DNA of 50,002 nucleotides from a virus. Under the pieces are notes generated by a model. That model saw only the letters and a program-made list of their open reading frames with translations. It searched no databases and was not told the origin of the DNA. Every line of letters starts with the position of its first letter. Positions within the stretch are counted from its first letter, which is position 1. A program made the translations under genes and the position numbers. The DNA lies in the IMG/VR virus record IMGVR_UViG_3300030104_005742, positions 371 through 50,372 of that record; one strand, given 5' to 3'. This document shows positions 8,940 through 37,588 of the stretch, one piece after another.

Positions 8940-9067
8940 TGGCAGGTAAAAGTAAAGAACGTGTACTTAATCAGATACTTGATGTATTATTACGTATGGA
9001 AGAGAGATTACAAGTTATAGAGTCAAAGTTAAATACAGAAGAAAAGAGAGAGGTTTTACATGGCTAA
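8936..9067 (+). CDS. Small coiled-coil protein (43 aa)
   Basis: ATGATG at 8936 overlaps the previous TGA; the frame ends at TAA 9065-9067, overlapping the first glycosyltransferase start. The 43-residue product has a heptad-like helix (ILDVLLRMEERLQVIESKL), suggesting a small oligomer. Function unknown. Confidence 0.6.
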   Translation: MMAGKSKERVLNQILDVLLRMEERLQVIESKLNTEEKREVLHG

Positions 9068-10448
9068 AAAAAAGATTTTATTATTGTCAGATGATTTAAG
9101 AATGAACTCTGGTGTCGGTACAATGTCTAAGGAGTTTGTTCTTGGAACATTACACCACTACGATTGGGTTCAAGTAGGTGGTGCTATTAAACATCCTGAT
9201 GAAGGAAAAATAATTAATATGGATGAATCTATCCGTAAGGAAACAGGAATAGAGGATGGAAAATTAACTATTTATCCGATTAGTGGATACGGAAGTCAAG
9301 AGTTAATTAGAGAATTATTAGGTAGAGAAAATCCAGATGCAATTTTACACTACACAGATCCTAGATTTTGGGGTTGGTTATATGATATGGAACATGAGAT
9401 AAGACAGAACATTCCAATATATTATTACAATATTTGGGATGATTGGCCAGCACCACAATACAATGAAAATTTTTATGAGTCTTGTGATTTGATTATGAAC
9501 ATATCAAAACAGACAGTTGCTATAGTTAAAGAGGTGGCGAAGAAAAAACCAAGAACAGATTGGGATTGTACTTACGTACCACACGGTATAAATGAAAAGC
9601 TTTTTTATCCAATAGATAAGTTTGGTGATGAGTATAAAAATGTTGAGGCAATGAGAAAACAACTAACAGATGATAATGTTGAGTTTATTGTATTTTATAA
9701 TAACAGAAATATCAGACGTAAATTACCTGGTGATATTATCATGGCCTTTAAACATTTCTGTGACCAACTTTCAAAAGAGGAAGCGGATAAGTGTTGTCTG
9801 TTGATGCACACACAACCTCGTGATGAGAATGGCACAGACTTACCAGTTGTTGCGAAAACAATGGCACCAGATTATAAGGTTTACTTTAGTGACCAAAAGT
9901 TATCAACACAACAATTAAATTATTTATACAATATGTCAGACTTAACTATTAACATGGCTTCAAATGAGGGTTTTGGATTAGGAACGTGTGAATCTCTAAT
10001 GGCTGGAACACCAATCATTGTTAATGTTACAGGTGGATTACAAGACCAATGTGGATTTAAATTAAACGGTGAGTTCGTCACTTATAAAGATTACGATGAA
10101 ATTAAATCGTTTCATGATGACAGAAAATGGAAAGATAATCCTGATTTAACTTGGGGTAATTGGGTTAAACCAATTTGGCCATCCAATCGTTCTCTTCAAG
10201 GTTCAATACCAACACCATATATTTTTGATGATAGATGTAGATGGGATGATGCAGGTGATGCTATAAGGGCATGGTATGATGAGAGTCAAGATAAAAGAGA
10301 AGAGTATGGAATGGAAGGTCATAAATTTGTAATGAGCGATGAATCGATGCAAAGTGCAACATCAATGTGTCAAAATTTTATAGACCACATGGATACGGCA
10401 TTTGATAAATGGAAACCAAGAAAACGTTATAGTATTTATAAAGCATAG
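9060..10448 (+). CDS. Glycosyltransferase, GT-B fold (GT4-like)
   Basis: A 462-residue glycosyltransferase that opens the glycan block. The N-terminal Rossmann domain has SDDLRMNSGVGTMSKEFV, as in acceptor-binding domains. The C-terminal nucleotide-sugar domain has NIRRKLPGDIIMAF and the signature ASNEGFGLGTCESLMAGTPI with the two glutamates of the retaining GT4 EX7E motif. Donor and acceptor cannot be told from sequence. Ribosome site AGAGG precedes the ATG. Confidence 0.85.
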   Translation: MAKKKILLLSDDLRMNSGVGTMSKEFVLGTLHHYDWVQVGGAIKHPDEGKIINMDESIRKETGIEDGKLTIYPISGYGSQELIRELLGRENPDAILHYTDPRFWGWLYDMEHEIRQNIPIYYYNIWDDWPAPQYNENFYESCDLIMNISKQTVAIVKEVAKKKPRTDWDCTYVPHGINEKLFYPIDKFGDEYKNVEAMRKQLTDDNVEFIVFYNNRNIRRKLPGDIIMAFKHFCDQLSKEEADKCCLLMHTQPRDENGTDLPVVAKTMAPDYKVYFSDQKLSTQQLNYLYNMSDLTINMASNEGFGLGTCESLMAGTPIIVNVTGGLQDQCGFKLNGEFVTYKDYDEIKSFHDDRKWKDNPDLTWGNWVKPIWPSNRSLQGSIPTPYIFDDRCRWDDAGDAIRAWYDESQDKREEYGMEGHKFVMSDESMQSATSMCQNFIDHMDTAFDKWKPRKRYSIYKA

Positions 10449-10456
10449 GAGTGATT

Positions 10457-10591: not shown

Positions 10592-10600
10592 GAGGAAAAT

Positions 10601-11929
10601 ATGAGTAAACCAGTATGTTTAGTTACGGCACCAGTTGCTACGAGAAGTGGTTATGGAGCTCACAGTAGAGATATTTGTAGAGCCCTAATCAAGTTAGATA
10701 AATATGATGTAAAGATATGGCCAGTAAGATGGGGTAATACACCAATGAACGCTTTACACGATGATGATGAAAATGATATACCTATTATTGAGAGATTATT
10801 ATTAGAACCAAATCTACCAAAACAACCAGAGATACATATTCATATTGTGATACCAAATGAATTTCAACCATTGGCAAAATATAATATTGGAATTACAGCT
10901 GGATTGGAAACTACAGCGTGTCCACCAGAGTGGATTCAAGGTATTAATAGAATGAATTTAAATATTGTACCAGCTACTTTTGTTAAAGATATTTTAAATA
11001 GAGTTAAATATGATGTACAAAATGAGCAAACACAACAAAAAGAAGGGGAATTAAAAGTTGATAAACCGATTGAAGTTTTGTTTGAAGGTGCAGATACTAA
11101 CATTTATAAAAAAACAAATGAATTTACTCAAGAGTTTGTAGATGAGATGGGTAAGATAGAAGAAGATTTTTGTTTTCTTTATGTAGGTCATTGGTTACAA
11201 GGTGGTTTGGGACAAGATAGAAAAGATACAGGTATGCTAATCAAAGTATTTTGTGAGACATTTAAGAATATGAAAAAACAACCAGCACTCATTATGAAAA
11301 CTAGTTCAGCCAGTTTTTCTGTAATTGATAGAGAAAATATGTTGAATAAAATAAATGAGATTAAATCACAAGTAAAAGGGAAGTGTCCAAATGTGTATTT
11401 AGTCCACGGAGATTTTACTGATGATGAGATGAATGGATTATATAATCATCCAAAGGTAAAGGCTCATGTTTCATTCACACATGGAGAGGGATTTGGTCGT
11501 CCCTTACTTGAGGCTAGTTTGTCTGAAAAACCTGTGATAGCTCCAAGTTGGAGTGGGCATACAGACTTTTTAGATTCTAAATATGCTGTAATGTTAGACG
11601 GTAATATGCAAAAAGTACAGAAAGGTTCTTTTCCAGACCAATTTTTTGTAGATGGTTCAGAATGGTTTACGGTAAATTATCAAAAAGCACAACAAACTTT
11701 TAGAAAAGTATATCGTAGTTATAAAAAGTATACTGCTAACGCTAAAAAGTTGTCAATACAAAATTCAAAAAACTTCTCATTGGATGCGATGACTAAGAAG
11801 TTAGGTGAAATATTAGATAAAAATATTCCTGATTTTCCAAAAGAAGTTAAATTACAATTACCAAAGTTAAAAAAACTAGGTGGTTCTGAACCAAAGAAAG
11901 TTAAACTACCAAAATTAAAGAAGGTATAA
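10601..11929 (+). CDS. Glycosyltransferase, GT-B fold, with Lys/Pro-rich tail
   Basis: A 442-residue glycosyltransferase, related in layout to the one at 9060. An N-terminal loop TRSGYGAHSRDICRAL matches the acceptor domain of GT4 enzymes. The donor-binding domain has FTHGEGFGRPLLEASLSEKPVIAP with the paired glutamates. The last about 30 residues repeat the unit LPKLKK, an unusual basic tail that could bind DNA, membrane or a partner. Confidence 0.83.
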   Translation: MSKPVCLVTAPVATRSGYGAHSRDICRALIKLDKYDVKIWPVRWGNTPMNALHDDDENDIPIIERLLLEPNLPKQPEIHIHIVIPNEFQPLAKYNIGITAGLETTACPPEWIQGINRMNLNIVPATFVKDILNRVKYDVQNEQTQQKEGELKVDKPIEVLFEGADTNIYKKTNEFTQEFVDEMGKIEEDFCFLYVGHWLQGGLGQDRKDTGMLIKVFCETFKNMKKQPALIMKTSSASFSVIDRENMLNKINEIKSQVKGKCPNVYLVHGDFTDDEMNGLYNHPKVKAHVSFTHGEGFGRPLLEASLSEKPVIAPSWSGHTDFLDSKYAVMLDGNMQKVQKGSFPDQFFVDGSEWFTVNYQKAQQTFRKVYRSYKKYTANAKKLSIQNSKNFSLDAMTKKLGEILDKNIPDFPKEVKLQLPKLKKLGGSEPKKVKLPKLKKV

Positions 11930-11930
11930 C

Positions 11931-12377
11931 ATGGAGAGAGTAATAACGTGTCCACATTGTTTAGATACGAATAATTGTTTTGAAGAAATACAAGAAACTT
12001 TTAGTTCTTATTTATGCTTTTCTTGTGGTTTTATGAGTGATTCTAGGTACGAGATTGGTAATTTACAGTTGATTGAGAATATGAAAAATTCACCACAACT
12101 TGTGAGAGAATCACAATTTGAAGATAAAGATAGAGGTATAATTTGGTTTCCATCTGTAATTAATATGGGTAAACTAGGTATGATTTTTCCAGAAGGAACT
12201 AAAGATAAATACGTTTGGAAGTACGCTAAAGTTGTAGATATTCCTGAAGAAGAACGAGTTAATTATGATAATTATAGTCAGAGACTTGATGTAGAAAACG
12301 CTAAAACATTCCAACAGAATGATTTTATGGGGGCTTGTAAAGAAATGGGAATAACTCAAAGATTAAATAATGCCTAA
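11931..12377 (+). CDS. Zinc-ribbon protein of unknown function
   Basis: A 148-residue protein with an N-terminal zinc ribbon (CPHC at 7-10 and CFSCG around 29-33) followed by about 100 residues without a recognised domain. It overlaps the next gene by 8 bases. Similar proteins sit among DNA-related genes of marine T4-like phages, but I cannot assign a function. Confidence 0.7.
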   Translation: MERVITCPHCLDTNNCFEEIQETFSSYLCFSCGFMSDSRYEIGNLQLIENMKNSPQLVRESQFEDKDRGIIWFPSVINMGKLGMIFPEGTKDKYVWKYAKVVDIPEEERVNYDNYSQRLDVENAKTFQQNDFMGACKEMGITQRLNNA

Positions 12378-12834
12378 AAAAATATATAATTGGGCAAAAG
12401 TAAAAGCTGGTGATATCATATCTTTTAGATATAAGGGTAAAAAACCAACTGGTACTCTAACTACCCTATTAGTGTTTAATCCAAAAATACCATACACTAG
12501 AAAAGATGGAAGTAAAACATTTCATTTAGTTGGACTAAAACTAGAGGATAGAGGAACTATTCCTATAATTAAAAACAAACCATTGTTAGTTCAGTTATTA
12601 GAAAGGGTGGGTGAAATAAAAGTTGTTAGTGGAGATGACCAAATATATAGAGTTGTTATAGAAAATGTTGGTAATCGTGGTGTTAGACAACAGACATACA
12701 ATAAGTTAAAAAAATATATAGAAAGATATAGTGTGTATAGAACATACAGTTACAATGAAGCTAGAAGGTCACAAGTATTTCTTGAACCAATAGTTCTACC
12801 AATAGAATTTAGAGAGGTACTTATTGAAAATTAG
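12370..12834 (+). CDS. Hypothetical basic protein (154 aa)
   Basis: A soluble, basic 154-residue protein with beta-rich character at the start (KAGDIISFRYKGKK) resembling a small SH3-like barrel. Function unrecognised. It lies inside the glycan block and overlaps the following glycosyltransferase by 11 bases. Confidence 0.68.
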   Translation: MPKKIYNWAKVKAGDIISFRYKGKKPTGTLTTLLVFNPKIPYTRKDGSKTFHLVGLKLEDRGTIPIIKNKPLLVQLLERVGEIKVVSGDDQIYRVVIENVGNRGVRQQTYNKLKKYIERYSVYRTYSYNEARRSQVFLEPIVLPIEFREVLIEN

Positions 12835-13468
12835 TTATGGTATAACAGTTCACAATGAAGCTGAAGAACTGCAAAAGTTATTAGAAGTATTAAATAAGAA
12901 TATAGATAAAGAAGATGAGATAGTTGTTTGTGTAGATGGTGATGATGAAAAGGTAGAAGCTGTTTTGGGTGAATCATTAGCTAGTTGGCATACTGATATA
13001 GTTTATAAAAGAAAACTAGATGGTAATTTTGCAGACCAAAAAAATTCGGTTATAGAAAAATCAAGTGGTGATTACATTTTTCACATAGATGCTGATGAAT
13101 ATCCAAATAAAATATTATTACAACAATTAAAACATATACTAGAGATGAATGATGTTGATTTGGTATGGATACCTAGAGTAAATACTGTTGATGGATTTAC
13201 ACAGGAGGATGTACAAAAATGGGGTTGGAGAGTTAATGAAAAAGGTTGGGTAAATTATCCAGATTATCAAGCAAGAGTGTTTAGAAACAGAGAAGATATT
13301 AGATGGACAAGACCACTTCACGAATATATTACAGGTTGTAAAACATATTCACATTTACCACCACATGAAGAGTTGAGTTTATATCATCCAAAAACTATGG
13401 AAAAACAAGAAAAACAAAATATGTTTTATATGGAAAATTTTAGTAAAGATTTATTGGTAAGAAGATGA
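12824..13468 (+). CDS. Glycosyltransferase family 2-like, TTG start
   Basis: GT-A-fold enzyme of 214 residues. The nucleotide-binding start is KISYGITVHNEAEELQKLL, VCVDGDDE follows, and the metal-binding DxD is in IFHIDADEYP. The start is TTG at 12824: GAGAGG lies 6 bases upstream, no in-frame ATG exists near it, and the conserved domain begins at once. This is the short WaaE-like form of GT2. Confidence 0.85.
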   Translation: MKISYGITVHNEAEELQKLLEVLNKNIDKEDEIVVCVDGDDEKVEAVLGESLASWHTDIVYKRKLDGNFADQKNSVIEKSSGDYIFHIDADEYPNKILLQQLKHILEMNDVDLVWIPRVNTVDGFTQEDVQKWGWRVNEKGWVNYPDYQARVFRNREDIRWTRPLHEYITGCKTYSHLPPHEELSLYHPKTMEKQEKQNMFYMENFSKDLLVRR

Positions 13469-14481
13469 TAAAAATTAAGTTATATGAATCTGAAATACAT
13501 CGTAATGAAACGACCTTTAGACCATTTTTAAAGGCGATAAATTTATTTAGAGATGTTGGTATAGAGTTTACAAATTCAGATGATTATGATTATGCCTTTG
13601 TTGGTCAGGCGAGTATAATAGATAAAAAGAAATCATTAAAAGAGTCAGTAGAAAAGGGACTAGAGTTTGTATCTAAAATAACAGGTGACTATATGATTGT
13701 GGATGGTCAAGACGCTACAACACTAATAGGAACGATAGATGTATTTAGAGAGTCAAATGCTTTTTTGTATTTAAAAAATACATATTTAAAAGATTTTGAT
13801 TTATATAAACAAGGTTGGGCAAACGGTAGATATTATTGGGGTGAAGGTAATTATTCTGTTCCTGATATTGATGACTTAAAACCAAAAATGAAACTAACGG
13901 GATGTAATTGGTTACATACCATACAACCTAATTGGTTAGATTATGGTTCTGAGAAACCATATGATATATCTTGTATGTTTGGATATCCAACAAAAACTCC
14001 TGTATATGAACATGATGTTTGTCAAACAGATTATTACGATCCTCACAGAAAAAAATTAATGGATATTCTTGAAGGTAAGTATAAAATAGCAGGTCTTGTA
14101 AATGGAGACAGGATACCAATAGAAAAGTATTACCAAAAAATGTATGAGTCTAAAATAATCATGGCACCACTTGGTTACGGTGAGATGGCACCTCGTGATT
14201 TAGAATCTGCTATGTTTGGTGGTGTTTTAGTAAAACCAGATATGAGTTATATAAGTTCAGAACCATTTATATATGAAGATAATGAAACTTATATCGCAGT
14301 TAATTATGATTGGTCTAACCTCGAAGAAAAGATTGATTATATATTATCAGATTATAATAATATTAGAGATAGATTAGTTGGTAATATGAGAAAACAATAT
14401 GAGGAGAAATATGATTTAAGAAACTTAGTTTTACATTTTTATAATATTCTTAAAAGTTTAGACGGAGTTGAGACACAATGA
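13465..14481 (+). CDS. Glycosyltransferase-like, GT-B (CgeB/exostosin-like)
   Basis: A 338-residue protein. The C-terminal half has KYYQKMYESKIIMAPLGYGEMAPRDLESAMFGGVLVKPD, the donor-domain pattern of GT1/CgeB-like enzymes where the catalytic acidic residue precedes a small Gly-rich turn. The N-terminal half is divergent. It overlaps both neighbours by 4 bases, as part of a run of four glycosyltransferase-like genes. Confidence 0.7.
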   Translation: MIKIKLYESEIHRNETTFRPFLKAINLFRDVGIEFTNSDDYDYAFVGQASIIDKKKSLKESVEKGLEFVSKITGDYMIVDGQDATTLIGTIDVFRESNAFLYLKNTYLKDFDLYKQGWANGRYYWGEGNYSVPDIDDLKPKMKLTGCNWLHTIQPNWLDYGSEKPYDISCMFGYPTKTPVYEHDVCQTDYYDPHRKKLMDILEGKYKIAGLVNGDRIPIEKYYQKMYESKIIMAPLGYGEMAPRDLESAMFGGVLVKPDMSYISSEPFIYEDNETYIAVNYDWSNLEEKIDYILSDYNNIRDRLVGNMRKQYEEKYDLRNLVLHFYNILKSLDGVETQ

Positions 14482-15485
14482 GATTTTTACTAATAGAGGA
14501 TTCAGTAGCTATAAAATCATATTACATAAAAGATAAATCAGCGTATGGTTACCATGATAACAAACCATATTCGTATCATCACGGATTTTCTCCTGAGTGT
14601 TTTTTAGCGATGCATAATCTTCCCTTTATTTTTGATTTTGGTGCACATATAAATTGGATAGATTGGAATGATTTACCTGATATGGATATAGATTTTATTG
14701 TATATGACAAAGGTAAAATTGGTTTGGATGACGATAAATATGATAGATATCACACAGATATTTTAAGAAAAAAATATCCAAACGCTAAAATATTGGGGTG
14801 GGTTAAAGAAGTTAATGTTGCGAACGATATGAGATTAAGAAATAGAGTTCGATTTCTAAATGAATGTGATGCTGTAATAACTTCTGGTATATCTGAGAAG
14901 TTTAAAAATATAGATATGTTTAAGTATCTTAGGTCAGTTGTTGATAAAAAGTTTTATTTCATTTCTCAACCAGTAAACATTGATTATCTTTTTGATAACT
15001 TTTATAACGAGGAAAAGGATTTATCTATATGGGCTTATCTTCCCAATCCATTATATAGGAGAGGTAAAACTTATGAATTTGCTGATTATATTGGTAATAA
15101 GTATGACGTACCAGTACGAAAAAAGCCATTACAAAATAATCAAAAGTTTGATTATATAGGACAAAGAGAATTTATAGAAATGTGGTCTAAGTCAGCATTT
15201 CATTTTAATCTCGATCCATCAGACATACATCCTGGTAATCAAATAATGCAAACGGCAGCTGTTGGTTGTATAAATATTGGTGGTTTGAATGAGTCTCATA
15301 GTATAATGTATCCTAACTCTGCAACATGCGATGAAAAAATTCTTGAAGAGGTTTTTGTGGAATACTTGAAAGATGATAATAAAAGATTTGAAGCCATTTC
15401 TTTTGCGTGGGAAAAATTAAATGAAATTTATAGTTTTAAATCAGTTAAAGAACAGATATACAAAATAGATGAAGAGTTATCATGA
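14478..15485 (+). CDS. Putative glycosyltransferase, GT-B-like
   Basis: A 335-residue protein with a Rossmann-like start (MRFLLIEDSVAIKSYY), a KILGWVKEVN strand, and a C-terminal region FIEMWSKSAFHFNLDPSDIHPGNQIMQTAAVGCINIGG. That last region resembles the donor domain of GT-B enzymes that sit next to CgeB-like proteins. The call relies on this and on the tight gene order. Confidence 0.55.
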   Translation: MRFLLIEDSVAIKSYYIKDKSAYGYHDNKPYSYHHGFSPECFLAMHNLPFIFDFGAHINWIDWNDLPDMDIDFIVYDKGKIGLDDDKYDRYHTDILRKKYPNAKILGWVKEVNVANDMRLRNRVRFLNECDAVITSGISEKFKNIDMFKYLRSVVDKKFYFISQPVNIDYLFDNFYNEEKDLSIWAYLPNPLYRRGKTYEFADYIGNKYDVPVRKKPLQNNQKFDYIGQREFIEMWSKSAFHFNLDPSDIHPGNQIMQTAAVGCINIGGLNESHSIMYPNSATCDEKILEEVFVEYLKDDNKRFEAISFAWEKLNEIYSFKSVKEQIYKIDEELS

Positions 15486-16264
15486 AAATTAGTATAATGT
15501 GGATGACTAGAAAAAGGTCACATGAACTAATTTATTCTATGTGTTCTTTTATTAATAAAGCTACTAATAATCAAGACATTGAATATATTGTGGCATTAGA
15601 TCCTGATGATAATGAGACGATACATGGTTTAGAAAAAGTTTATATGATGAGTCAGGTAGAGGATGCAAATATATCTTATTGTGTGACCGATAAAAAATAT
15701 GGATATGAAGAATTAGAACAATATCAAAATTTAGTAGGTGATTTATTTACTGGTGATTGTTTATTAATTATGAATGATGATATTGTTTGTTTAACGAAGG
15801 GGTGGGATGATTCTGTTAGAGACGTATTACGAAATAATTTAGACTCACCTAATTGGATTGGTATGACAGGTATCAACGAGAAGTATAAAAACACTATGAC
15901 TTTCGTTGGTATCAATAGAAAGTGGTACGAGGTTACTAATAGAGTTTCTGGTAATAGAGCCACAGATGGTTACATACGAGACTTAGGAAAAGCTTTGAAA
16001 TTATCACCATTAGAACCTAAATTAGATATAATACATTTACAGAGGGGTAAAGGTGAAATACAATATGAATGGAATAATAAAAAATATGTTGTTCATGGTT
16101 TACCTGATGATGGTGCAGGTGGATACCCAACAAAAAATCCTAAACCACCTAAATATTTTCATGACCCGAATGAGTTTGATAATCCTAAAACAAATTTTAT
16201 TGAGGGAAAACAAAGATTTGATGAAGATTTTAATAACTTAAAAAATTGGATAGATAATGAATAA
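15482..16264 (+). CDS. Glycosyltransferase family 2-like, GT-A
   Basis: A 260-residue GT-A enzyme. It starts MKISIMWMTRKRSHEL and carries the metal-binding motif LLIMNDDIV, equivalent to DxD. The last 60 residues are rich in Pro, Gly and Asp. It overlaps both neighbours by 4 to 8 bases. Confidence 0.75.
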   Translation: MKISIMWMTRKRSHELIYSMCSFINKATNNQDIEYIVALDPDDNETIHGLEKVYMMSQVEDANISYCVTDKKYGYEELEQYQNLVGDLFTGDCLLIMNDDIVCLTKGWDDSVRDVLRNNLDSPNWIGMTGINEKYKNTMTFVGINRKWYEVTNRVSGNRATDGYIRDLGKALKLSPLEPKLDIIHLQRGKGEIQYEWNNKKYVVHGLPDDGAGGYPTKNPKPPKYFHDPNEFDNPKTNFIEGKQRFDEDFNNLKNWIDNE

Positions 16265-16748
16265 AAACATTTTTGATGATGTTCAAGTATTTCAACCTGA
16301 GGCATATGAAGACTGTCGTGGTGAACTTTGGACAACATATAAAAAAGATGAGTTTCCAATTCCATTAGACTTTAATCATGATAAGGTTTCTACATCTAGA
16401 AAAAATGTCATTAGAGGTATTCATGGTGATAATAAGTCTTGGAAGTTAGTTACTTGTTTGTATGGTGATATGTATTTTGTTGTGGTGGATAATAGAAAAG
16501 ATTCAGATACATACTTACAATGGGATTGGATAATACTAAATGATAAAAATAAAAAAATGGTTTTATTACCACCTAACTTTGGAAATTCTTTTTGTGTTTT
16601 GAGTAATTACTCTATATTTATGTATAAGTGGTCTTATGATGGAGAGTATGCTGACGTAGAAGAACAATTTTCTTTTAAGTGGAACGATCCAAATATTAAT
16701 ATAAATTGGCCAATTGAGAATCCTATATTATCAGAGAGGGATAAATGA
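16257..16748 (+). CDS. RmlC-like sugar 3,5-epimerase (cupin)
   Basis: A 163-residue cupin related to dTDP-4-dehydrorhamnose 3,5-epimerase. It has the family landmarks DCRGELWTTY, VIRGIHGD with the catalytic His, LPPNFGNSFCVLS in place of the usual PxGxAHGF, and YKWSYDGEY near the C-terminus. The usual His after PxGxA is missing, so it may act on another 4-keto sugar or only as a 3-epimerase. It sits ahead of the split TPP enzyme and the 3-dehydrase, and probably works in the same sugar pathway. Confidence 0.75.
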   Translation: MNKNIFDDVQVFQPEAYEDCRGELWTTYKKDEFPIPLDFNHDKVSTSRKNVIRGIHGDNKSWKLVTCLYGDMYFVVVDNRKDSDTYLQWDWIILNDKNKKMVLLPPNFGNSFCVLSNYSIFMYKWSYDGEYADVEEQFSFKWNDPNININWPIENPILSERDK

Positions 16749-17377: not shown

Positions 17378-17385
17378 AGGTTATT

Positions 17386-23951: not shown

Positions 23952-24400
23952 TGTTAAAACATGGTGAAATAAAAACAGATGTTTATATGGAAGAAGCTTG
24001 TTGTATACCAAAAGGTTGGGGTAAAGAAATTATTATAGAAAATAATGAATTGTATTGTGGAAAGATATTGGTGTTTAATAAGGGATGTAAGTTTTCGATG
24101 CACTATCATATGAACAAAGATGAAACTTGGTGGGTAGAAGAAGGTGAGTTTAATTATACATTTATTGATACTGAAACAGCATATCCTACTACAATAAAAT
24201 TGTCACCTGGTTGGGTGGTTAGACAATATCCTGGCCAACCACACCAATTAGAAGCAGTAACTGATGGTAGAATATTTGAGGTATCTACACATCATGAAGA
24301 TTCAGATTCCTATAGAGTATTACCAGGTGATAGTCAGGTAGAAGTTTGGGATAGTATTGAAAAATTTGAAAGAGATAACGGATTAGGAGATAAAAAGTGA
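23951..24400 (+). CDS. Cupin, sugar-phosphate isomerase-like
   Basis: A 149-residue single-domain cupin. Metal ligands are visible: HxH with a following Glu in SMHYHMNKDETWW, and a second His in GQPHQLEA. The sequence resembles mannose-6-phosphate or glucose-6-phosphate isomerase-type cupins. Together with the kinase downstream it may prepare a sugar phosphate for nucleotide activation. The ATG at 23951 is preferred over a TTG two codons earlier. Confidence 0.7.
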   Translation: MLKHGEIKTDVYMEEACCIPKGWGKEIIIENNELYCGKILVFNKGCKFSMHYHMNKDETWWVEEGEFNYTFIDTETAYPTTIKLSPGWVVRQYPGQPHQLEAVTDGRIFEVSTHHEDSDSYRVLPGDSQVEVWDSIEKFERDNGLGDKK

Positions 24401-29975: not shown

Positions 29976-30637
29976 CGATATCAATAGATGATTTACATCC
30001 TGAAAAAGGATGGGGGTGTGAGGGTGATGAGTCTGTAGAATATTTACAGAAACTAAATGATGAGTTTGGTTGTAAGTTTACCTTGTTCACACCAGCTTTT
30101 TATCATAAGAAATACCCTTTATCAAAGAGTAAAGATTGGGTAGATTTTTGGTTAGATAAAAAATGGGTGGAGTTAGCTTCTCATGGTTATTATCATATGT
30201 GTGAAGATTCAAACAGGTTTGGTGAATGTGAGTTTTTTGAAATAAATTCTGTTCAACAAGCAAAAAATACTATTGAACTATGTCTTGAAGAGTGGGATAA
30301 AGTAGGTCACAAACCAGTTGGATGGAGAAATCCAGGTTGGTTAATAAATCCATCAATTAAAGATGTAGTTGACAATGAATTTGATTATGTGGCCTTACAT
30401 ACAGAGCATAATCATGATTTGAAATGGAAGAGTAAAATGTTGTTTGGTCACGATGGTATCAATGAAACTGATTCCATAAACATTTGGAATGAAAATACTT
30501 TTATGTTTCAATCTCACATAGCTGGTGATTGGAATGATAATTGTTGGACAGAGGAAAATTATTTGAATTTTAGAAATGTAATTGAATATTTATCTACACA
30601 ATATGAATTAAGTTTTAAGACATTAAGAGAGTTATAA
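29966..30637 (+). CDS. Polysaccharide deacetylase-like (NodB/CE4 or DUF2334)
   Basis: A 223-residue NodB-fold enzyme. Motif 1 is TISIDDLHPE with the DD pair (8-9), motif 2 is ELASHGYYHM with the metal-binding HxxxH, and motif 3 is GWRNPGW in place of RxPxG. These support metal-dependent removal of an acetyl group from a sugar. With the PIG-L-type deacetylase and formyltransferase downstream, it suggests remodelling of N-acyl groups on amino sugars. Confidence 0.78.
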   Translation: MEVTISIDDLHPEKGWGCEGDESVEYLQKLNDEFGCKFTLFTPAFYHKKYPLSKSKDWVDFWLDKKWVELASHGYYHMCEDSNRFGECEFFEINSVQQAKNTIELCLEEWDKVGHKPVGWRNPGWLINPSIKDVVDNEFDYVALHTEHNHDLKWKSKMLFGHDGINETDSINIWNENTFMFQSHIAGDWNDNCWTEENYLNFRNVIEYLSTQYELSFKTLREL

Positions 30638-31539
30638 TGAAAGTTTTAATCACAGGTGGAACTGGCACAGTAGGTCAGGCCATCATCAAACAAAATGATA
30701 ATGAGTATATCAGTATCAGTAGAAACGAAGAGAATATAGCTAAACTAAAGAGGGAATATCCCGAAGTTAAATGTTACGTTGGTAATATAGAAGATGAAGG
30801 TTTATTACTTAGAGTATTCAAAGAGGTAAAACCTGATGTGGTAGTTCATGCGGCAGCTATGAAACATATTGATTTAATGGAGACAAATCCAATTGCAGGT
30901 TGTAATGTAAATGTAATGGGTAGTTTGAATGTTGTACAGGCTAGTCTTATCAATGATGTTCCTATAACTATTGGTATCAGCACAGATAAAGCTTGTATGG
31001 CTGAAAGTGTTTATGGTGCTTCAAAGTATTTAATGGAGAGAGTCTTTATGAATACTAACACAGATGAAAATAGATTTGCATTGACTAGATTTGCTAATGT
31101 GGCTCATAGTGCTGGTTCAGTATTACCATTTTGGATGAAGTTAAAAGAAGAGGGTAAACCACTTAAACTTACAGACCCGAACATGAACAGATTAATATTC
31201 ACTAAAGAAGATGCTGCTAGTTTAATTAATAGAACAATAGATTTCACTAGAGAAAATGGTGGTGGTTTTGTAAAGTCGTATAAGATGAAATGTGTGAATA
31301 TGTTAGATTTAGCTAAAGTTATTTCTGATGACATAGAGATAGTCGGTAAAAGACCTGGTGAGAAAACAGATGAGGATTTGATATCTGAAAGAGAAATAGC
31401 TCGTACATTTGTTTATGGTGATGATATTCATATTCGTATGGATGAAAATGAAGATGATAATAAATTAGATAGACCATATAACTCTGTTAGTGCAGAACAT
31501 ATGACAGAGGAAGAGATGGAGAAATTAGTTTGGGGTTAA
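30637..31539 (+). CDS. UDP-GlcNAc 4,6-dehydratase-like SDR (PseB/CapD family)
   Basis: A 300-residue SDR. TGGTGTVG opens the fold, AAAMKHIDLMETNP and GISTDKACMAESVYGASKYLMERVF give the PseB-type active site (TDK and YxxxK), and RFANVAHSAGSVLPFW plus GKRPGEKTDEDL are family signatures. PseB inverts C5 of UDP-GlcNAc while dehydrating it, a first step to pseudaminic acid or 6-deoxy amino sugars. A frameshifted homolog lies 2 kb downstream. Confidence 0.87.
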   Translation: MKVLITGGTGTVGQAIIKQNDNEYISISRNEENIAKLKREYPEVKCYVGNIEDEGLLLRVFKEVKPDVVVHAAAMKHIDLMETNPIAGCNVNVMGSLNVVQASLINDVPITIGISTDKACMAESVYGASKYLMERVFMNTNTDENRFALTRFANVAHSAGSVLPFWMKLKEEGKPLKLTDPNMNRLIFTKEDAASLINRTIDFTRENGGGFVKSYKMKCVNMLDLAKVISDDIEIVGKRPGEKTDEDLISEREIARTFVYGDDIHIRMDENEDDNKLDRPYNSVSAEHMTEEEMEKLVWG

Positions 31540-32507
31540 AAGATTATAAGATAGCTTGGTTCACAGAGGGTGGATGGCAAGGTAAGGTTACTTTAGATAA
31601 TCCTAATATGAGGAATGATGTATCTACTATGTATACATTAGGCTCTGAACATTATCCTATATTTCAGATACCACAAGTCTTACAACACTTTGGTGAAAAC
31701 CACTTTGATTTTGGTATTGTAACTCTACCTAAAACAAATACAGAACAATTGTTGAAGTTTGATATGATGGGTGATTTAAAGAAGTTATGTAAGAAAACTA
31801 TTTCAATGCAAGAAGGTCCTCATTGGTTGTTTCAAGACTATACTATGGAACAACAGATTTGGTGGTTCAATGCTCTTACAGAGTTTGATATGTTATTTGC
31901 TCATAATCTAAAAGATGTCAGATACTATAAAGGATTAACAAACAAACCTGTACATAAAATGCCAACACTAATGTTAACTGAAAGATTGGGTATCCAACCA
32001 AGAAGTGAGTGGAGTGATGCTGTAATAATCGGTGGTAATATGGTTAGGTGGTATGGTGGATTTGATTCTTATATGGTTGCTCAAGAGTTTGGTATGCCGA
32101 TAGTTGCTCCATCGATGGGTAGAAAGATTGATAGAGAAGATGAGATGGATATTCAACATCTACCATATATGAGTTGGGTAGAGTGGATGAATAATTTAAG
32201 TCAGTATCATGTTGGTGTTCATTTAATGCCAACACATGCAGCTGGTACATTCGCATTGAATTGTGCATTTCATGGTATACCTTGTATTGGATATGAGGGT
32301 TTAGATACACAAGAAGAATTACATTCACACTTAACTGTTTGGGATGGTGATATGGAAACTGCTAAACAATATGCAAAGGATTTAAAAGATGATGAGGAGT
32401 TCTATGATGATTGTAGTAGGACAGCAAGAGAAAATTATCAGAACTCTTTATACAATGAGAAAAACTTTGTACCATACATAACAAGAATATTGGAGAGTTT
32501 AAAATGA
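31530..32507 (+). CDS. Putative glycosyltransferase, GT-B-like, TTG start
   Basis: A 325-residue protein starting GLKDYKIAWFTEGGW. A C-terminal region YMSWVEWMNNLSQYHVGVHLMPTHAAGTFALNCAFHGIPCIGYEG has the layout of a GT-B donor site. The start is TTG at 31530: GGAG (31518-31521) lies 8 bases upstream and the next ATG is 26 codons in. It overlaps the PseB-like gene by 10 bases. Confidence 0.65.
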   Translation: MGLKDYKIAWFTEGGWQGKVTLDNPNMRNDVSTMYTLGSEHYPIFQIPQVLQHFGENHFDFGIVTLPKTNTEQLLKFDMMGDLKKLCKKTISMQEGPHWLFQDYTMEQQIWWFNALTEFDMLFAHNLKDVRYYKGLTNKPVHKMPTLMLTERLGIQPRSEWSDAVIIGGNMVRWYGGFDSYMVAQEFGMPIVAPSMGRKIDREDEMDIQHLPYMSWVEWMNNLSQYHVGVHLMPTHAAGTFALNCAFHGIPCIGYEGLDTQEELHSHLTVWDGDMETAKQYAKDLKDDEEFYDDCSRTARENYQNSLYNEKNFVPYITRILESLK

Positions 32508-33453
32508 AAAACAAAAAAATAATGATTATTGGTGGTACAGGTGCTTTAGGAAAAACTTTAATAAAAAGATATAATGAAGAAAACAATATATTAGTTTTTT
32601 CAAGAGACGAACACAAACAAGTTAAATTGAAAAACACCTTTGGTGAGATACAATATCAGATTGGTGATGTCAAGGATAAAGATAGTTTACTACAAGCTAT
32701 AAATGAATACGAACCTAATATAGTTATAAACACAGCAGCTTTAAAACACGTTCCAATATGTGAAGAAAATCCATATGAAAGTGTAAAAACAAATATAATC
32801 GGTCATAGAAACTTGATAGTATACAATCAAGTAACCATAAAATAGAGACTTTAATTTTTATATCAACTGATAAGGCTTGTAAACCAATCAATGTATATGG
32901 TATGTGCAAAGCAATATCAGAGAGACTTTACATAGATTATGCCAATAAACAAAAAGATGTAAAAGTAGTTTTATGTAGATATGGTAATGTTTTAGAATCT
33001 ACTGGCTCAGTAATACCATATTTTAAAAAATTATTAGAGAGTGGTGTTAGTTCTTTACCAATTACAGATGAACGAATGACTAGATTCACAATAACTTTGA
33101 AAGAATCGGTAGAGTTGATAGATTGGGCGTACAATCATACTGAATCTCATGGAGCCATAGTTGTACCAAAACTAAAATCAATGTTCATAACAGATTTAGC
33201 AAAAGTTCTCGCAAAAGATTATGGTCATGATGATATAGATTTAAATTTTGTAGGTATAAGACCTGGTGAAAAGCTACATGAAGAAATGGTAAGTTTGGAA
33301 GAGTCTATGAGAGCTAAAGAATATGATAAATATTTTATGATTACTGATAGTATCATAAACGAGGGAGCTTGGTCTTTTTCTTCAGATTCTACCATAATTG
33401 ATGACTATGATGAGATAACAAATTTTTTAATTGAAAAGAAAGTTTTGAAATGA
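32504..33453 (+). pseudogene. Frameshifted PseB/CapD-like SDR
   Basis: The first frame (32504-32845) gives GGTGALGKTLIKRY through TAALKHVPICEENPYESVKTNIIGHRN, then runs into TAG. The same protein resumes in another frame at about 32812 with LDSIQSSNHKIETLIFISTDKACKPINVYGMCKAISERL and continues to 33453 with RYGNVLESTGSVIPYF and GIRPGEKLHEE. The join needs a net loss of one base (or a four-base GATA deletion) near 32810-32820. No slippery heptamer is evident there, so a mutation or sequencing error is likelier than programmed frameshifting. Intact, it would be about 316 residues. Confidence 0.85.
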
Positions 33454-34169
33454 AAGTATTAGTTTTAGGTCATACAGGAATGTTAGGTAATGCCGTATGT
33501 AATTATTTACATGAATTAAATGATGTATCTTTTGTTATAATAAAACATAGATGGCCAACAGATTCATTTAAAAATGATGTTAAAAAGTTTGATGGTGATT
33601 ATATAATAAATTGTATTGGTGCCATTCCACAAAGAACAAATAAGTTTGAGATAAATTATGAGTTACCAATATGGTTGGATGAGAATGTAGATTGTAGGGT
33701 AATTCACCCAGCAACAGATTGTGAAATGGATAGTGATGAGTATGGAAAGTCTAAGTTTAAAGCTGGAAGACACTTATCCATACATGGTACTAAAACAAAA
33801 CAAATTGTGACATCTATAATAGGACATGAGATTGACACTAATTTTAGTTTGTTGGATTGGTTTTTGAATAGTGAAGGTCAAGTATTTGGGTGGAGTGAAC
33901 ATTATTGGAATGGTAACACCACATTAGAGTGGGCTAAACAAGCTTATACGATGATGACAGATTGGGAGAAATATGCAAAACGTACAGTTGTTTCCACTAA
34001 TTGTATATCAAAATACGAATTATTAACCATAATTAAAGAGGTTTATAATAAGGATATTATCATTAATGAAGATGATAGTGTAAAAGCTAATAAGTGTCTA
34101 AATGGTCAAATAAAAACTACACCGATAAAAGAACAACTAAAAGAGTTAAAGGCTTTTTATGATAATTGA
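33450..34169 (+). CDS. RmlD/WbjC-like sugar-nucleotide reductase (SDR)
   Basis: A 239-residue SDR with MKVLVLGHTGMLGNAV at the start, NCIGAIPQR, HPATDCEM and a catalytic YGKSK. It resembles dTDP-4-dehydrorhamnose reductase and the related WbjC/FnlB reductase, which follows a PseB-like enzyme in FucNAc synthesis. Its position right after a PseB-like gene fits that pattern. It is short for RmlD (about 290). Confidence 0.75.
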   Translation: MKVLVLGHTGMLGNAVCNYLHELNDVSFVIIKHRWPTDSFKNDVKKFDGDYIINCIGAIPQRTNKFEINYELPIWLDENVDCRVIHPATDCEMDSDEYGKSKFKAGRHLSIHGTKTKQIVTSIIGHEIDTNFSLLDWFLNSEGQVFGWSEHYWNGNTTLEWAKQAYTMMTDWEKYAKRTVVSTNCISKYELLTIIKEVYNKDIIINEDDSVKANKCLNGQIKTTPIKEQLKELKAFYDN

Positions 34170-35109
34170 TGTAAAACCAGAATTTGGTTATGAGATAGCG
34201 TGTTCGATACCATATGCATATTGGTTACATAAACGTGGAGAGTTAGAAAAAGTAATCACGTGTAAAGGGATGAAACCATTTTATTATTTCTGTGATAATG
34301 TTGAAGAGAAATATGAACAACGCTCGGTGAACAACTCAACTAATGGTGTACAAAATTTACCCAATTGTTGGATACATCATAATACTCACGTTTTTTTCAA
34401 GGACAAAACTTACGGAGATTTAACCGAAGAGGAAAAACAAAAAGTAAACGGAGTGCTCGATTACTCTAAATGGATATCACCACCAATTAAAGAAGAGTAT
34501 AATGATAGCGATTTTAACTTTGGGGATAAGTCAATTATCATATCTAATAAAATATCTATGGATCATGGTCAGAAACCATTATCATTTTTCGATGTAAAAA
34601 CTTTATATGAAATGTTTAATTATCTTTCGGATAAGGGATATACTATAATTTATAAAAGACCACAAATGAACGAATTTATCATAGATGAAAATGAATTAAG
34701 AACTGTTATGAACAAATACACGATATCAGCCGATGTTGATGGTCTAGGAGTAATTAATGATTTTCAGTTAACTAAATATTATGATAATGTTTTATTATTA
34801 GATGACATTGTAAAAAATAATGATAAGTACACCTATAACGAGGTACAACTCAGAGTTTTTTCAAATGTGGACAATTTTATCTCTATAGCGGGTGGTAATA
34901 GTATTTTTTGTAGTTTATTTGGTGGAAAACAAGTCACTTACGTGACAACAAGTAATGAACTTAGACCAGGTTATTATGATGGTGATAGTTACACCAAAAG
35001 ATTGGGGGGAGCAAAAATATATCCTGTTATCGATCCTGAGACGATTATTAATGAGAGAGGGTATAATGATTATGAATCTTTATTATCTAAGGTAAGGGAG
35101 ATATTTTGA
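34159..35109 (+). CDS. Hypothetical protein, possibly a glycosyltransferase
   Basis: A 316-residue protein with an N-terminal EFGYEIACSIPYAYWLHKRGE and a C-terminal NFISIAGGNSIFCSLFGGKQVTYVTT. The latter resembles the donor site of GT-B enzymes such as fucosyltransferase- or GT61-like proteins. The evidence is weak and based mainly on context and this loop. It overlaps both neighbours by 4 to 11 bases. Confidence 0.45.
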   Translation: MIIDVKPEFGYEIACSIPYAYWLHKRGELEKVITCKGMKPFYYFCDNVEEKYEQRSVNNSTNGVQNLPNCWIHHNTHVFFKDKTYGDLTEEEKQKVNGVLDYSKWISPPIKEEYNDSDFNFGDKSIIISNKISMDHGQKPLSFFDVKTLYEMFNYLSDKGYTIIYKRPQMNEFIIDENELRTVMNKYTISADVDGLGVINDFQLTKYYDNVLLLDDIVKNNDKYTYNEVQLRVFSNVDNFISIAGGNSIFCSLFGGKQVTYVTTSNELRPGYYDGDSYTKRLGGAKIYPVIDPETIINERGYNDYESLLSKVREIF

Positions 35110-35720
35110 AGCGTTTAATTATTGCACCTCACGCTGATGATGATGTTCTAGGTTGTGGTGGAATATTAGACCATACATGCCATGTGGTTTATTGTGGTCT
35201 AGATGAGAGTGGTATTGATAATAGACCAGAGATGGATGAAAGAATTTCTGAGATAAATAAAGTTCAGAGTATTACTAATCACACATTTGAAGTTCTTGAT
35301 AATTTGGTTAACAGATATGAAGAGTATAAATTAATAAGTCAAATTGAAAATATAATTAATCATCATAAACCAAATGAAGTCTATGTCTGTCACCCATCAT
35401 ATAATCAAGACCATAAATCAGTTTATAATGCCACCATGATTTCATTAAGACCACATGATACAAATTATTTTGTACCTAAAGTTTTTTTATATGAACAACC
35501 CCAAGTTTACTTTTGGAACACCACAGACCGAGATTTCAACGCCAATTACTTTGTCGAGATAGATATTGATAAAAAAATTAAAGTTTATGAAACTATGAAA
35601 TCACAAGTTAGAAGTTTTAGAAGTTTTGAACATCTAAGGTCTAATGCAAAAATCAGAGGTGGTCAAAGTAATTGTGAATATGCTGAGGCTTTCGAAATAA
35701 TTAGGTGGGTAAATGGATAA
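35106..35720 (+). CDS. PIG-L/LmbE-type N-deacetylase, TTG start
   Basis: A 204-residue zinc-dependent amino-sugar deacetylase. The family motif AHPDDE appears as PHADDD (8-13), and the distal zinc ligand is in HPSYNQDHK. The start is TTG at 35106, 5 bases after GGGAG; no ATG is available before the active-site motif. It would expose an amino group that the formyltransferase encoded next could modify. Confidence 0.83.
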   Translation: MKRLIIAPHADDDVLGCGGILDHTCHVVYCGLDESGIDNRPEMDERISEINKVQSITNHTFEVLDNLVNRYEEYKLISQIENIINHHKPNEVYVCHPSYNQDHKSVYNATMISLRPHDTNYFVPKVFLYEQPQVYFWNTTDRDFNANYFVEIDIDKKIKVYETMKSQVRSFRSFEHLRSNAKIRGGQSNCEYAEAFEIIRWVNG

Positions 35721-36381
35721 TATTTTAATATGTGGTTATAGAGATTGGTCTTTCAAACTATTTTTAGATGTAAAAGAAACCATTATAGATTATTTCTGTG
35801 TTTATGTCGATGATAAAGAATTATTAGATGAAATGATTGATAAGTACAATCCAAAATATATTTTCTTTATTGGTTGGAGTTGGATTGTAAAACAAAGTAT
35901 AGTTGATGACTATAAATGTATTTGTCTTCATCCATCCCCATTACCAAAGTATAGAGGCGGTTCTCCAATCCAACATCAAATAATAAATGGAGAGAGGGAT
36001 AGTGCAGTTTCATTATTTTTGATGGATGATGGTATAGATACAGGAGACATTCTGTTTCAGAAAAAATTTTCACTTAATGGAAATTTAAATGATATTTACA
36101 ATAGAATAATAGACATAGGTGGTGATGGTGTTATAAAAATTTTAGAGGAAGGTTTTAATCAAGTCAAACAAAATGACAATGAATCAACTTATTTTAAAAG
36201 ACGAACACCGAGTATGAGTGAGATTAATACAGAAGATTTCAATCATTACACAGCCGAAGAATTACATGACAAAATTAGGGCGTTACAATCACCATATCCA
36301 AATGCATACATTAAATGTAAAGATGGTACAAAGTTATTTTTATTAGAGTCAAAAGTAGGGAAAAAACATGAAAACAATTAG
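35713..36381 (+). CDS. N-formyltransferase-like (sugar formyltransferase/FMT fold)
   Basis: A 222-residue enzyme of the formyltetrahydrofolate-dependent transferase fold. HPSPLPKYRGGSPIQ (73-87) and DDGIDTGDI (105-113) are clear signatures, with catalytic His73 and Asp112. The usual catalytic Asn two residues before the His is Cys71, which could alter or abolish activity. Known relatives N-formylate amino sugars in surface glycans or methionyl-tRNA; its position after a deacetylase favours a sugar. Confidence 0.8.
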   Translation: MDNILICGYRDWSFKLFLDVKETIIDYFCVYVDDKELLDEMIDKYNPKYIFFIGWSWIVKQSIVDDYKCICLHPSPLPKYRGGSPIQHQIINGERDSAVSLFLMDDGIDTGDILFQKKFSLNGNLNDIYNRIIDIGGDGVIKILEEGFNQVKQNDNESTYFKRRTPSMSEINTEDFNHYTAEELHDKIRALQSPYPNAYIKCKDGTKLFLLESKVGKKHENN

Positions 36382-37588
36382 TTTTATACAACCAAGTAGA
36401 AACAATCTAAAATACTTAAAGTGGTCTTACAATAGTATTCGTAAGAACTTGGGATACAGGCACGAGATATGTATGGCCGATGACGCTTCAGATGATGGAA
36501 CGTGGATGTGGATGAATAAGATTGCAGATAAAGATAAAAATGTAAAGATACATAGAAACAATGGGTATAAGAGATTAGGACACACGATACTTTACGATAC
36601 ACTTATCAACGACTACGCAACTAATGATATCGTTATGATATATCATGCAGATATGTATGCTTGTCCTAAGATGGATGTGGAAGTTTTAAAACATTTGGAG
36701 AGAGGTAAGGTTGTATCTGCGACAAGAATAGAACCACCACTACATCCAGATGGGCCAGAGAAGGTACTAAAAGACTTCGGTATAGAACCTGAAGAGTTTG
36801 ATGAGTTAGGATTGATAGAATTTTTAGATATAGGAATTGATTACACCAAAAAACCGACTGAAGGGATATTCGCACCTTGGGCTATATACAAAGATGACTT
36901 TCAAGCGATAGGTGGACATGACCCGTTGTACGCTCCACAATCAAAAGAGGACTCTGATATCTTCAATAGGTTTCAATTAGCTGGGTATGAGACAATACAG
37001 ACTTGGAGAGGGTTTGTATATCACATGACTTGTAGGGGTAGTAGATTTAAAGACGGTGCGATGAGGAATCCAGCAGGTCAAGTCTTCATGAAGGGTAGAG
37101 AATCCTCAGAGTGGTTGGCTCAAAATCTTAGGTCAACTCGTAACTTCATTCGTAAGTGGGGACATATGGTAAAACATGATGAGTATCTAAAACCGATAGT
37201 GCCACCAAAATATAAAGTGTATTTCAAAGCTTACAATTGTAATCTAAATTTACTTAGAGAGTTAGAACCTTGGTGTGATAAGATATTCTTAGACTATGGT
37301 TCAGTAGGTAAATATTCAGCTCAATATCGAAAAGAAGAGCAACCTGACACTCAGTTTAATTTAGATGAAAAGATATTCATGTATGGTAATAGTGAAATTA
37401 CAGACCAAGATGCTATAGTGGTAGAGTTTGATTGTGATAAACTCACACCAGATAACTTCCAAATATTAGTAAACTTATCAGAAATAGTTCAAGAAAGCGG
37501 TGAACTCGGTGTTATGGAGTTAGAGATATTTAAATTTCATATAAATTCACTAGAAACATATGAAAAGGAGTTAATAAATGTCGTATAA
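36368..37588 (+). CDS. Glycosyltransferase family 2 with C-terminal extension
   Basis: A 406-residue protein that closes the glycan block. The GT-A domain (1-about 260) has FIQPSRNNLKYLKWSYNSIRK, MADDASDDGTW (first Asp pair) and MIYHADMYACP as the DxD equivalent. Residues after about 300 form an extra domain (KYKVYFKAYNCNLNLLRELEPW) without a recognised family. It overlaps the formyltransferase by 14 bases and the next gene by 11. Confidence 0.83.
   Translation: MKTISFIQPSRNNLKYLKWSYNSIRKNLGYRHEICMADDASDDGTWMWMNKIADKDKNVKIHRNNGYKRLGHTILYDTLINDYATNDIVMIYHADMYACPKMDVEVLKHLERGKVVSATRIEPPLHPDGPEKVLKDFGIEPEEFDELGLIEFLDIGIDYTKKPTEGIFAPWAIYKDDFQAIGGHDPLYAPQSKEDSDIFNRFQLAGYETIQTWRGFVYHMTCRGSRFKDGAMRNPAGQVFMKGRESSEWLAQNLRSTRNFIRKWGHMVKHDEYLKPIVPPKYKVYFKAYNCNLNLLRELEPWCDKIFLDYGSVGKYSAQYRKEEQPDTQFNLDEKIFMYGNSEITDQDAIVVEFDCDKLTPDNFQILVNLSEIVQESGELGVMELEIFKFHINSLETYEKELINVV

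Follow-up and report, generated by a model that had tools for sequence, protein, structure and literature searches.

Genes of the lipopolysaccharide (LPS) type have been known in phages for two decades, and the question of whether they are functional or only stuffer DNA has been left open. The T4-like cyanophage P-SSM2 carries 24 LPS genes in two clusters, and the published reading is that the host surface is altered by their products (PMC2984593). LPS clusters are also present in the T4-like cyanophages S-SSM7 and S-SM2, for which stuffer DNA was raised as a possibility (PMC3037559). These clusters occur in a minority of the cyanophage genomes, near hli03 or near phoH and tRNA genes (PMC2984593, PMC3037559). 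In the pelagimyophages, glycosyltransferase (GT) genes and rfaE-type genes are located in a hypervariable host-recognition region, and a modification of the host O-chain has been suggested (PMC7029224). The moraphages, which are aquatic, T4-related and have predicted Bacteroidota hosts, share four core orthogroups of putative GTs, and variable islands that remain unexplored are mentioned for them (PMC12619734, 2025). In this work we analyzed a block of glycan genes located at positions 9060-37588 of a 50,002-nucleotide stretch of viral DNA (the window), which represents most of the linear 50,372-base IMG/VR virus record IMGVR_UViG_3300030104_005742.

In the map of open reading frames (ORFs) of the window, where each gene is named by w and its start coordinate (w9060 is the gene that starts at 9060), the block comprises 33 ORFs, all on the plus strand. 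The ORFs overlap at 26 of the 32 junctions, by exactly 4 nt at ten of them, and the only gaps longer than 20 nt measure 152 and 56 nt; the limits of the block, its single strand and its operon structure are those given in the original prediction, which was made from the window alone. From the analyses presented here we conclude that the block is, in all likelihood, an island for glycan assembly that resides and functions in a lineage of T4-like phages. Its most likely acceptor, although this assignment is tentative, is the host lipid A-core, i.e. lipooligosaccharide (LOS) or rough LPS.

The block resembles the clusters of P-SSM2, S-SSM7 and S-SM2 in its T4-like backbone and in having at least ten contiguous polysaccharide genes. 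Unlike them, it has fixed edges and an exchanged interior, and in each metagenomic relative examined it occupies a fixed site after the genes gp43-45-44-62, so that it follows replication genes and is not in the neighbourhood of hli03 or of phoH and tRNA genes. In contrast to the GT genes of pelagimyophages, which lie among tail-fibre genes or occur dispersed in twos and threes, it forms a dedicated operon away from the fibres. The moraphages can be likened to this lineage by their description only, and the passage of PMC12619734 considered here does not mention such a locus. Within the part of the literature covered, three features appear to be new: a single locus with fixed edges and an exchanged interior, the retention of this locus under selection throughout the lineage, and the chromosomal counterpart of its edge genes described below.

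Fixed edges and exchanged interior

The T4-like character of the genome, also part of the original prediction, is confirmed by the left flank, where PHROG profiles identify a gp43 polymerase, the sliding clamp, the large and small subunits of the clamp loader and an exonuclease. The gp43-type DNA polymerase (255..2765, plus strand), which we used as the backbone marker, matches phrog_262 with an E value of 7e-184 and is 88% to 54% identical to the polymerases of the relatives; gp44 was matched at E 4e-84, and matches to gp45 and gp62 were also obtained. The relatives were found by searches with this polymerase and with the right-edge dehydratase, and were then read as contigs. The block was compared across 19 genomes (the window and 18 relatives), and the pairwise comparison of interiors and polymerases covered 15 genomes.

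The block starts with two GT4 genes and a GT2 gene in all 19 genomes, a large GT2 gene closes it in 16, and the GT-B gene w31530 is present in 17. In the metagenomic relatives it is found at the same site, after the same replication genes. Two cultured phages also carry it: the Flavobacterium phage immuto (vB_FspM_immuto, NC_055915; Immutovirus) has an 11-kb version and the Microcystis phage Mel-JY01 a 6-kb version. A megablast search of the block against phage genomes gave no match. In immuto the genes gp181-gp169 are arranged like the block, with GT4, GT4, a small protein and GT2 (gp178, the homologue of w12824) on the left and a homologue of w36368 (gp169, 47% identity) on the right; unlike the window, immuto has other interior genes and an annotated family-A DNA polymerase. 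The terL, gp20, major capsid protein, sheath and tube products of the 164.8-kb relative G032 are about 50% identical to those of immuto, in whose record gp20 and gp23 are annotated as T4-like. G032 also encodes a transfer-messenger RNA (Rfam RF00023, 85.7 bits; tag VNDEPTYAYAA; L273 9378-9797) and a tRNA-Gly.

The content of the interior does not track the replication backbone, since the number of shared interior genes and the identity of the polymerases are mismatched. For instance, the window has 19 interior genes in common with G008 (polymerase identity 88%) and none with G013 (79%), and the interior Jaccard index of G012 and G013 is 0.00 at a polymerase identity of 79%; in contrast, G013 and G007 have 19 interior genes in common at 65%, and G001 and G004 share 15, with a mean identity of 76%, at only 57%. 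The right edge moves as well, given that its proteins in the window share 80-88% identity with those of G004/G010, although the polymerases of these two genomes are just 54% identical to that of the window. The interiors of other islands include genes for NeuB, cytidylyltransferases, C-methyltransferases and sulfotransferases. On the question whether the block is exchanged as a unit, the interior is indeed swapped between fixed edges, but in large pieces or nearly whole and not strictly as one unit.

Purifying selection acts across the entire block. Between the window and G008, the nonsynonymous and synonymous differences (pN/pS) were 0.110/0.62 in the interior, 0.108/0.63 in the left edge, 0.090/0.58 in the right edge and 0.076/0.60 in the replication flank. 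The ratio dN/dS was far below 0.5 for each block gene with a measurable value, and below 0.15 for most of them, although these values are rough because synonymous sites are near saturation. The low ratios argue against stuffer DNA, a possibility raised for the cyanophage LPS clusters (PMC3037559) and one to which a frameshifted dehydratase gene in the window (32504..33453) could also point; however, G008 has an intact copy of this gene that is under constraint. That the block consists of non-functional stuffer DNA, of recently captured host genes or of an assembly chimera is refuted for the block as a whole: dN/dS is low throughout it, its junctions are common to the relatives, and the same locus is found in 18 other genomes, including complete records of cultured phages. 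The contig is thus not a chimera with a host chromosome, an outcome that would have undermined the original prediction.

A further reading, possible but tentative, is that the block is a lineage-wide "phage serotype" locus, in which the fixed GT ends, akin to a gene pair of host surface-glycan loci, hold an interchangeable interior that sets the terminal sugars on infected cells or virions. If so, interiors would pass between phages much as O-antigen cassettes do between bacteria. The retention of the block throughout the lineage, the purifying selection on it and the exchange of its interior favour a functional role.

The host of the lineage is most likely a member of the Bacteroidota. On record, immuto was grown on Flavobacterium and Mel-JY01 is listed on Microcystis. 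Phage contigs binned into metagenome-assembled genomes (MAGs; L167-L176) were not used for host assignment, because the bins conflict (Flavobacteriales, Pelagibacter, archaea). To the right of the block, positions 45232-46071 of the window encode a 279-aa protein with a C-terminal sorting domain of the Bacteroidota type IX secretion system (PF18962, E 3e-8) and a weak match to TSP3-like repeats; no relative of this protein was found among the 11 large contigs compared. The sorting domain supports a Bacteroidota host.

Membrane machinery and the acceptor

A scan for hydrophobic segments found no protein with more than one segment among the 589 block proteins of the 19 genomes; w46983_47327 of the same window, with four segments, served as positive control. 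By hidden Markov models (HMMs), the initiating transferase, Wzx and Wzy families PF02397, PF01943 and PF04932 were absent, PF00953 not being searched in the relatives. The lack of a flippase, a polymerase and a polyprenyl-phosphate transferase, which the original prediction had pointed out, is therefore supported by HMMs and by a scan that is independent of protein families. The block differs in this respect from Wzx/Wzy O-antigen or capsule clusters, for which an initiating transferase, Wzx and Wzy are expected. It also differs from the gtr serotype-conversion cassettes of temperate phages, for which multi-transmembrane (TM) proteins are expected: none of the GtrA or GtrC type was seen in the block by the TM scan, and w36368 shows a weak GtrB-like GT2 match in PHROG. 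Since membrane machinery is absent, the island alone cannot make and export a polymer, and would have to transfer its sugars to an acceptor that the host makes or that belongs to the phage particle; in consequence, the idea of a self-contained system is probably wrong.

A clue to the acceptor comes from bacterial chromosomes. In a scan of bacterial genomes, homologues of the right-edge GT2 w36368 were found on the chromosomes of Chryseobacterium, Spirosoma and Mucilaginibacter (27-32% identity), and the immediate neighbour of this homologue was a homologue of the left-edge GT2 w12824 (39-44% identity) in each of the 12 distinct Bacteroidota loci, which include Spirosoma, Chryseobacterium, Mucilaginibacter, a Spirosomataceae MAG and a Weeksellaceae MAG; locus L186 holds just the start of the w12824 homologue. 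A thirteenth locus (L271), with a weaker and shorter match, has no w12824 match within its 3.6 kb. In the five whole genomes, this neighbour was in every case the best w12824 match of the genome. The pair seems uncommon on chromosomes, given that the w36368 family was present in only 3 genomes of a 296-genome sample of the phylum, counting the genome at the centre. As at the phage edges, the two homologous GT2s lie within GT clusters: the pair is surrounded by GT4s and GT2s, in Mucilaginibacter also by GT9 heptosyltransferases, and three loci contain an MsbA-like ATP-binding cassette (ABC) exporter, which is the only protein of these clusters with three or more TM segments; no Wzx/Wzy-like multi-TM protein was found in them. 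By its predicted gene content, this region resembles an LPS-core region more than a Wzx/Wzy locus.

The homology of the edge GT2s to paired chromosomal GTs, whose neighbours in some loci are GT9 heptosyltransferases and an MsbA-type exporter, tilts the target to host lipid A-core or LOS. This acceptor also fits other features of the locus: the route can do without its own polyprenol carrier, flippase and polymerase, and export would fall to the host; the kinase of the block is of the RfaE/HldE type, as for the ADP-heptose of the LPS core; a conserved lipoprotein-like gene adjoins the block; and the published reading of phage LPS genes is that the host surface is altered (PMC2984593, PMC7029224). 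In such a pathway, the edge GTs would build a short conserved stem, and the interior would supply and add lineage-specific modified sugars (deoxygenated, possibly C-branched, N-formylated and methylated). Soluble or peripheral GTs would transfer these sugars in the host cytosol onto a host-made acceptor, the nascent lipid A-core at the inner leaflet, and the own exporter of the host would then flip the product. The infected cell would thereby display a phage-specified surface oligosaccharide that may hide receptors from competing phages or stop the progeny from sticking to debris. If this is correct, phages would run a serotype-like switching on infected aquatic Bacteroidota. With immuto, a relative in culture, the acceptor can be tested directly.

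Several points weigh against the assignment to lipid A-core. Both the host-made acceptor and the Bacteroidota host are ones that we infer, and Mel-JY01 is recorded on Microcystis. The chromosomal GT2s are only 27-32% and 39-44% identical to those of the phage, the role of the pair in LPS core is a predicted one, and its gene order is reversed: the chromosomal genes overlap or are adjacent, whereas the phage genes occur in the opposite order and are split by the interior (23 kb in the window). The MsbA label was given by similarity, and other ABC exporters score equally or better. In addition, the GT-D domain of w20911 and the GT w31530 resemble protein-glycosylating GTs (SP_1767 family, Gtf3/GtfA).

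This last resemblance, to the GTs for O-glycosylation of serine-rich adhesins, favours the main rival explanation, in which proteins of the virion (capsid, tail or fibres) receive their glycans from the enzymes of the island while still in the cytosol, and the swapped interior provides a phage-type-specific coat. Soluble GTs that act in series on sugars made by the island itself would need no membrane carrier, in agreement with the lack of multi-TM block proteins in the 19 genomes, and glycans on the capsid and tail tube of mycobacteriophages are cited in PMC12619734. If the product is placed on virions, the system would be among the more elaborate glycan systems of bacteriophages. We consider this explanation somewhat unlikely, given that the homologues of the edge pair are located in surface-glycan loci and not beside a secreted-protein target, that the block adjoins replication genes and not the head/tail module (135-161 kb versus 58-105 kb in G032), and that no initiating protein O-GT was identified in the block. 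That the enzymes produce a small glycoside, free or secreted, or modify another host acceptor such as the S-layer, the capsule or an O-antigen precursor on polyprenol with the help of host membrane enzymes, is clearly less probable. What has been established is the enzyme families, and acceptors are not revealed by sequence; moreover, the block includes a PseB/FnlA-like dehydratase, and such dehydratases are common in O-antigen and capsule pathways. On the other hand, the block has no initiating transferase, flippase or polymerase, and the chromosomal loci likewise lack a Wzx/Wzy-like multi-TM protein.

The original prediction had named virion proteins, DNA and the host surface as possible targets, and of these DNA is disfavoured. 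The T4-like backbone and the fold match of w31530 to the T4 alpha-glucosyltransferase would agree with a T-even style modification of phage DNA by an unusually long or variable sugar, and DNA glucosylation is named as a possible role of the core GTs in PMC12619734. However, T-even DNA glucosylation is expected to come with a hydroxymethylase of the thymidylate synthase family, and no member of this family was found in Mel-JY01 or in 42 related virus records (the largest of 165 kb), which are mostly fragments, so that its absence is no proof. In G032 and G034, which were the largest two records searched, the 7-deazaguanine DNA pathway of immuto (FolE, QueD, QueE, QueC, QueF and DpdA; L163/L164) was not found, and FolE, QueD, QueE, QueC and DpdA had no relatives there. 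Furthermore, the sugar-diversifying enzymes are more numerous than the attachment of one or two sugars to a base would require, and a DNA target is highly unlikely.

Glycosyltransferases and sugar enzymes of the block

The claim of at least ten well-supported GTs was too strong: the evidence supports nine, and the number could reach thirteen, but only four score above the curated Pfam cut-offs, namely w9060 (GT4), w12824 (GT2), the C-terminus of w20911 (GT-D) and w36368 (GT2). Weaker matches were obtained for w10601, w15482, w25158 and w26518, and w31530 was assigned by its predicted fold only.

The left edge starts with the GT4 w9060 (9060..10448; PF00534 E 2e-8, phrog_2170 E 7e-20), followed by the GT4-like w10601 (10601..11929), whose match is sub-threshold (PF00534 E 0.002) and whose family gave no match in a profile search of the PDB. 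The GT2 w12824 (12824..13468; PF00535 E 1.6e-13) completes the trio that is present in 19 of 19 blocks. Between these GTs there are two conserved small proteins with no PHROG match, one with an N-terminal CxxC pair (11931..12377; 15 of 19 blocks) and w12370 (12370..12834; 14 of 19), for which the fold prediction was of low confidence and unusable. In the right edge, w31530 (31530..32507; 17 blocks) yielded a model with a pLDDT of 87.5 that matches, with a Foldseek probability of 1.00, GT-B enzymes such as BshA (E 4e-10), and also Gtf3/GtfA and the T4 alpha-glucosyltransferase; tblastn found no homologue of it in phage records. The 406-aa GT2 w36368 (36368..37588; PF00535 E 4e-10; 16 blocks) is the last gene of the block.

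The interior includes the GT w15482 (15482..16264; phrog_14945 E 6.5e-6) and two paralogues that share a protein cluster present in 17 genomes: w25158 (25158..26525), a fusion of a GT8-like domain and a methyltransferase (PF13578 E 6e-11), and the GT8-like w26518 (26518..27255; PF01501 E 3e-4, sub-threshold). The 560-aa protein w20911 (20911..22593), overlooked in the original prediction, is a fusion of a radical S-adenosylmethionine (SAM) domain with the motif CAVACIVC, a SPASM domain (PF13186) and a GT-D domain (PF08759, above cut-off), with matches to the SP_1767 GT and to spiro-SPASM; G008 is the only other virus contig in the scan that encodes it. For w13465 (13465..14481; 338 aa, 6 blocks), which is GT-like by eye only, w14478 (14478..15485; 335 aa, 4 blocks), w28944 (28944..29975; 343 aa, 6 blocks) and w34159 (34159..35109; 316 aa), no GT family was matched in Pfam or PHROGs and nothing was found in the PDB by profile; a sub-threshold match of w28944 to an unrelated Pfam family was the only hit. 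A small protein (23556..23951; 4 blocks) has a sub-threshold match to PF10073 (E 6e-4).

The remaining families proposed for the block, i.e. an epimerase, dehydratases, a 3-dehydrase, deacetylases, a formyltransferase, a kinase and a redox fusion, were borne out by family matches, with three genes for sugar-nucleotide dehydratases and two proteins of deacetylase fold. None of the sugar enzymes reaches an NCBIfam equivalog cut-off, and therefore the family is supported but not the exact substrate. The RmlC-type 3,5-epimerase (16257..16748; PF00908 E 2e-40; rmlC, 122 bits, below the equivalog cut-off) is followed by a two-gene thiamine pyrophosphate (TPP) enzyme that had gone unremarked, with an E1-alpha-like half (16745..17377; PF00676 E 4e-14; pyruvate dehydrogenase E1 alpha) and a half with the E1-beta/transketolase pyrimidine domain (17386..17916; PF02779 E 3e-7). 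The next gene, w17885 (17885..19075; PF01041 E 1e-67), encodes a ColD/RfbH-type sugar 3-dehydrase of the DegT family. Its best solved relatives are the pyridoxamine phosphate-dependent dehydrase WbdK/ColD (E 1.7e-54) and CDP-4-keto-6-deoxyhexose 3-dehydrase, and its motif SFYFGHHITTIEGG bears a His-His pair, as read from the sequence. Based on what is known of branched-sugar pathways, the presence of the TPP pair beside the 3-dehydrase points to a deoxysugar that carries a two-carbon branch.

Two short-chain dehydrogenases/reductases (SDRs) come next, one epimerase/reductase similar to GDP-fucose synthase (19072..19974; PF01370 E 6e-41; GDPFucSynFcl, 175 bits, below cut-off) and one sugar-nucleotide epimerase/reductase (19964..20911; PF01370 E 7e-41). 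Downstream of w20911 are a GMD/RmlB-type 4,6-dehydratase (22606..23574; PF16363 E 7e-70; dTDP-glucose 4,6-dehydratase, 156 bits, below cut-off), a cupin similar to sugar isomerases/epimerases (23945..24400; PF07883 E 4.5e-7) and the PfkB kinase of the RfaE/HldE domain-I type, which is heptose-7-phosphate kinase-like (24397..25161; PF00294 E 4.5e-18; rfaE_dom_I, 126 bits, below the equivalog cut-off). The redox fusion joins a Gfo/Idh/MocA domain to a flavin-dependent (FAD, DAO) oxidoreductase (27185..28942; PF01408 E 1e-10, PF01266 E 4e-9), and the first deacetylase-fold protein is polysaccharide-deacetylase-like (DUF2334; 29966..30637; PF10096 E 1.5e-11).

The right-edge PseB/FnlA-like dehydratase w30637 (30637..31539), predicted to act on nucleoside diphosphate-N-acetylhexosamine in a 4,6-dehydration (PF02719 E 2e-59; PseB, 179 bits, below the equivalog cut-off), has close copies with 79-90% identity in most relatives and 63% in G006. 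The third dehydratase, of the Polysacc_synt_2 family, is the frameshifted one; it was also overlooked before and is split into 32504-32845 and 32902-33453, which cover positions 1-112 and 141-291 of PF02719. Since in G008 it is one intact frame, these are halves of one gene and the 56-nt gap is not a true gene boundary; the frameshift may be real or an assembly error, either of which fits a single contig. The block continues with a short SDR/RmlD-like protein (33450..34169; PF01370 E 8e-4, sub-threshold), a PIG-L/LmbE-type deacetylase (35106..35720; PF02585 E 9e-9) and a formyltransferase with an Fmt/ArnA-type fold (35713..36381; PF00551 E 7e-17) that could N-formylate an amino sugar.

Flanking regions

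The block is preceded by the largest non-coding or small-ORF gap (8713..9059, plus strand), which contains a TATATATTTATATATGTATATA stretch that may be a promoter; AT-rich words resembling TATATATTTATATATGTATATA are enriched 5' of genes in G032. In contrast, the T4 late-promoter word TATAAATA was not found 5' of the block (8713..9059) and is not enriched in G032 or G034.

On the right, the end of the block is overlapped by a phosphoribosyltransferase and nucleoside phosphorylase pair (37578..38676, plus strand; PF00156 E 1.5e-10, PF01048 E 2e-17), whose predicted activities may serve to salvage adenine by-products of the SAM enzymes of the block. The lipoprotein-like gene (39068..39613, plus strand) directly to the right of the block is kept in most relatives that reach that far, where it was matched by tblastn; its product has one N-terminal hydrophobic segment (residues 13-31) and a Cys, and is a candidate surface or superinfection factor. 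No tRNA genes were found in the window, and phoH lies 10 kb to the right of the block. The PhoH protein (47560-48288) is 93% identical to the G010 copy, while the polymerases of the two genomes are only 54% identical, which indicates that gene exchange also occurs outside the block.

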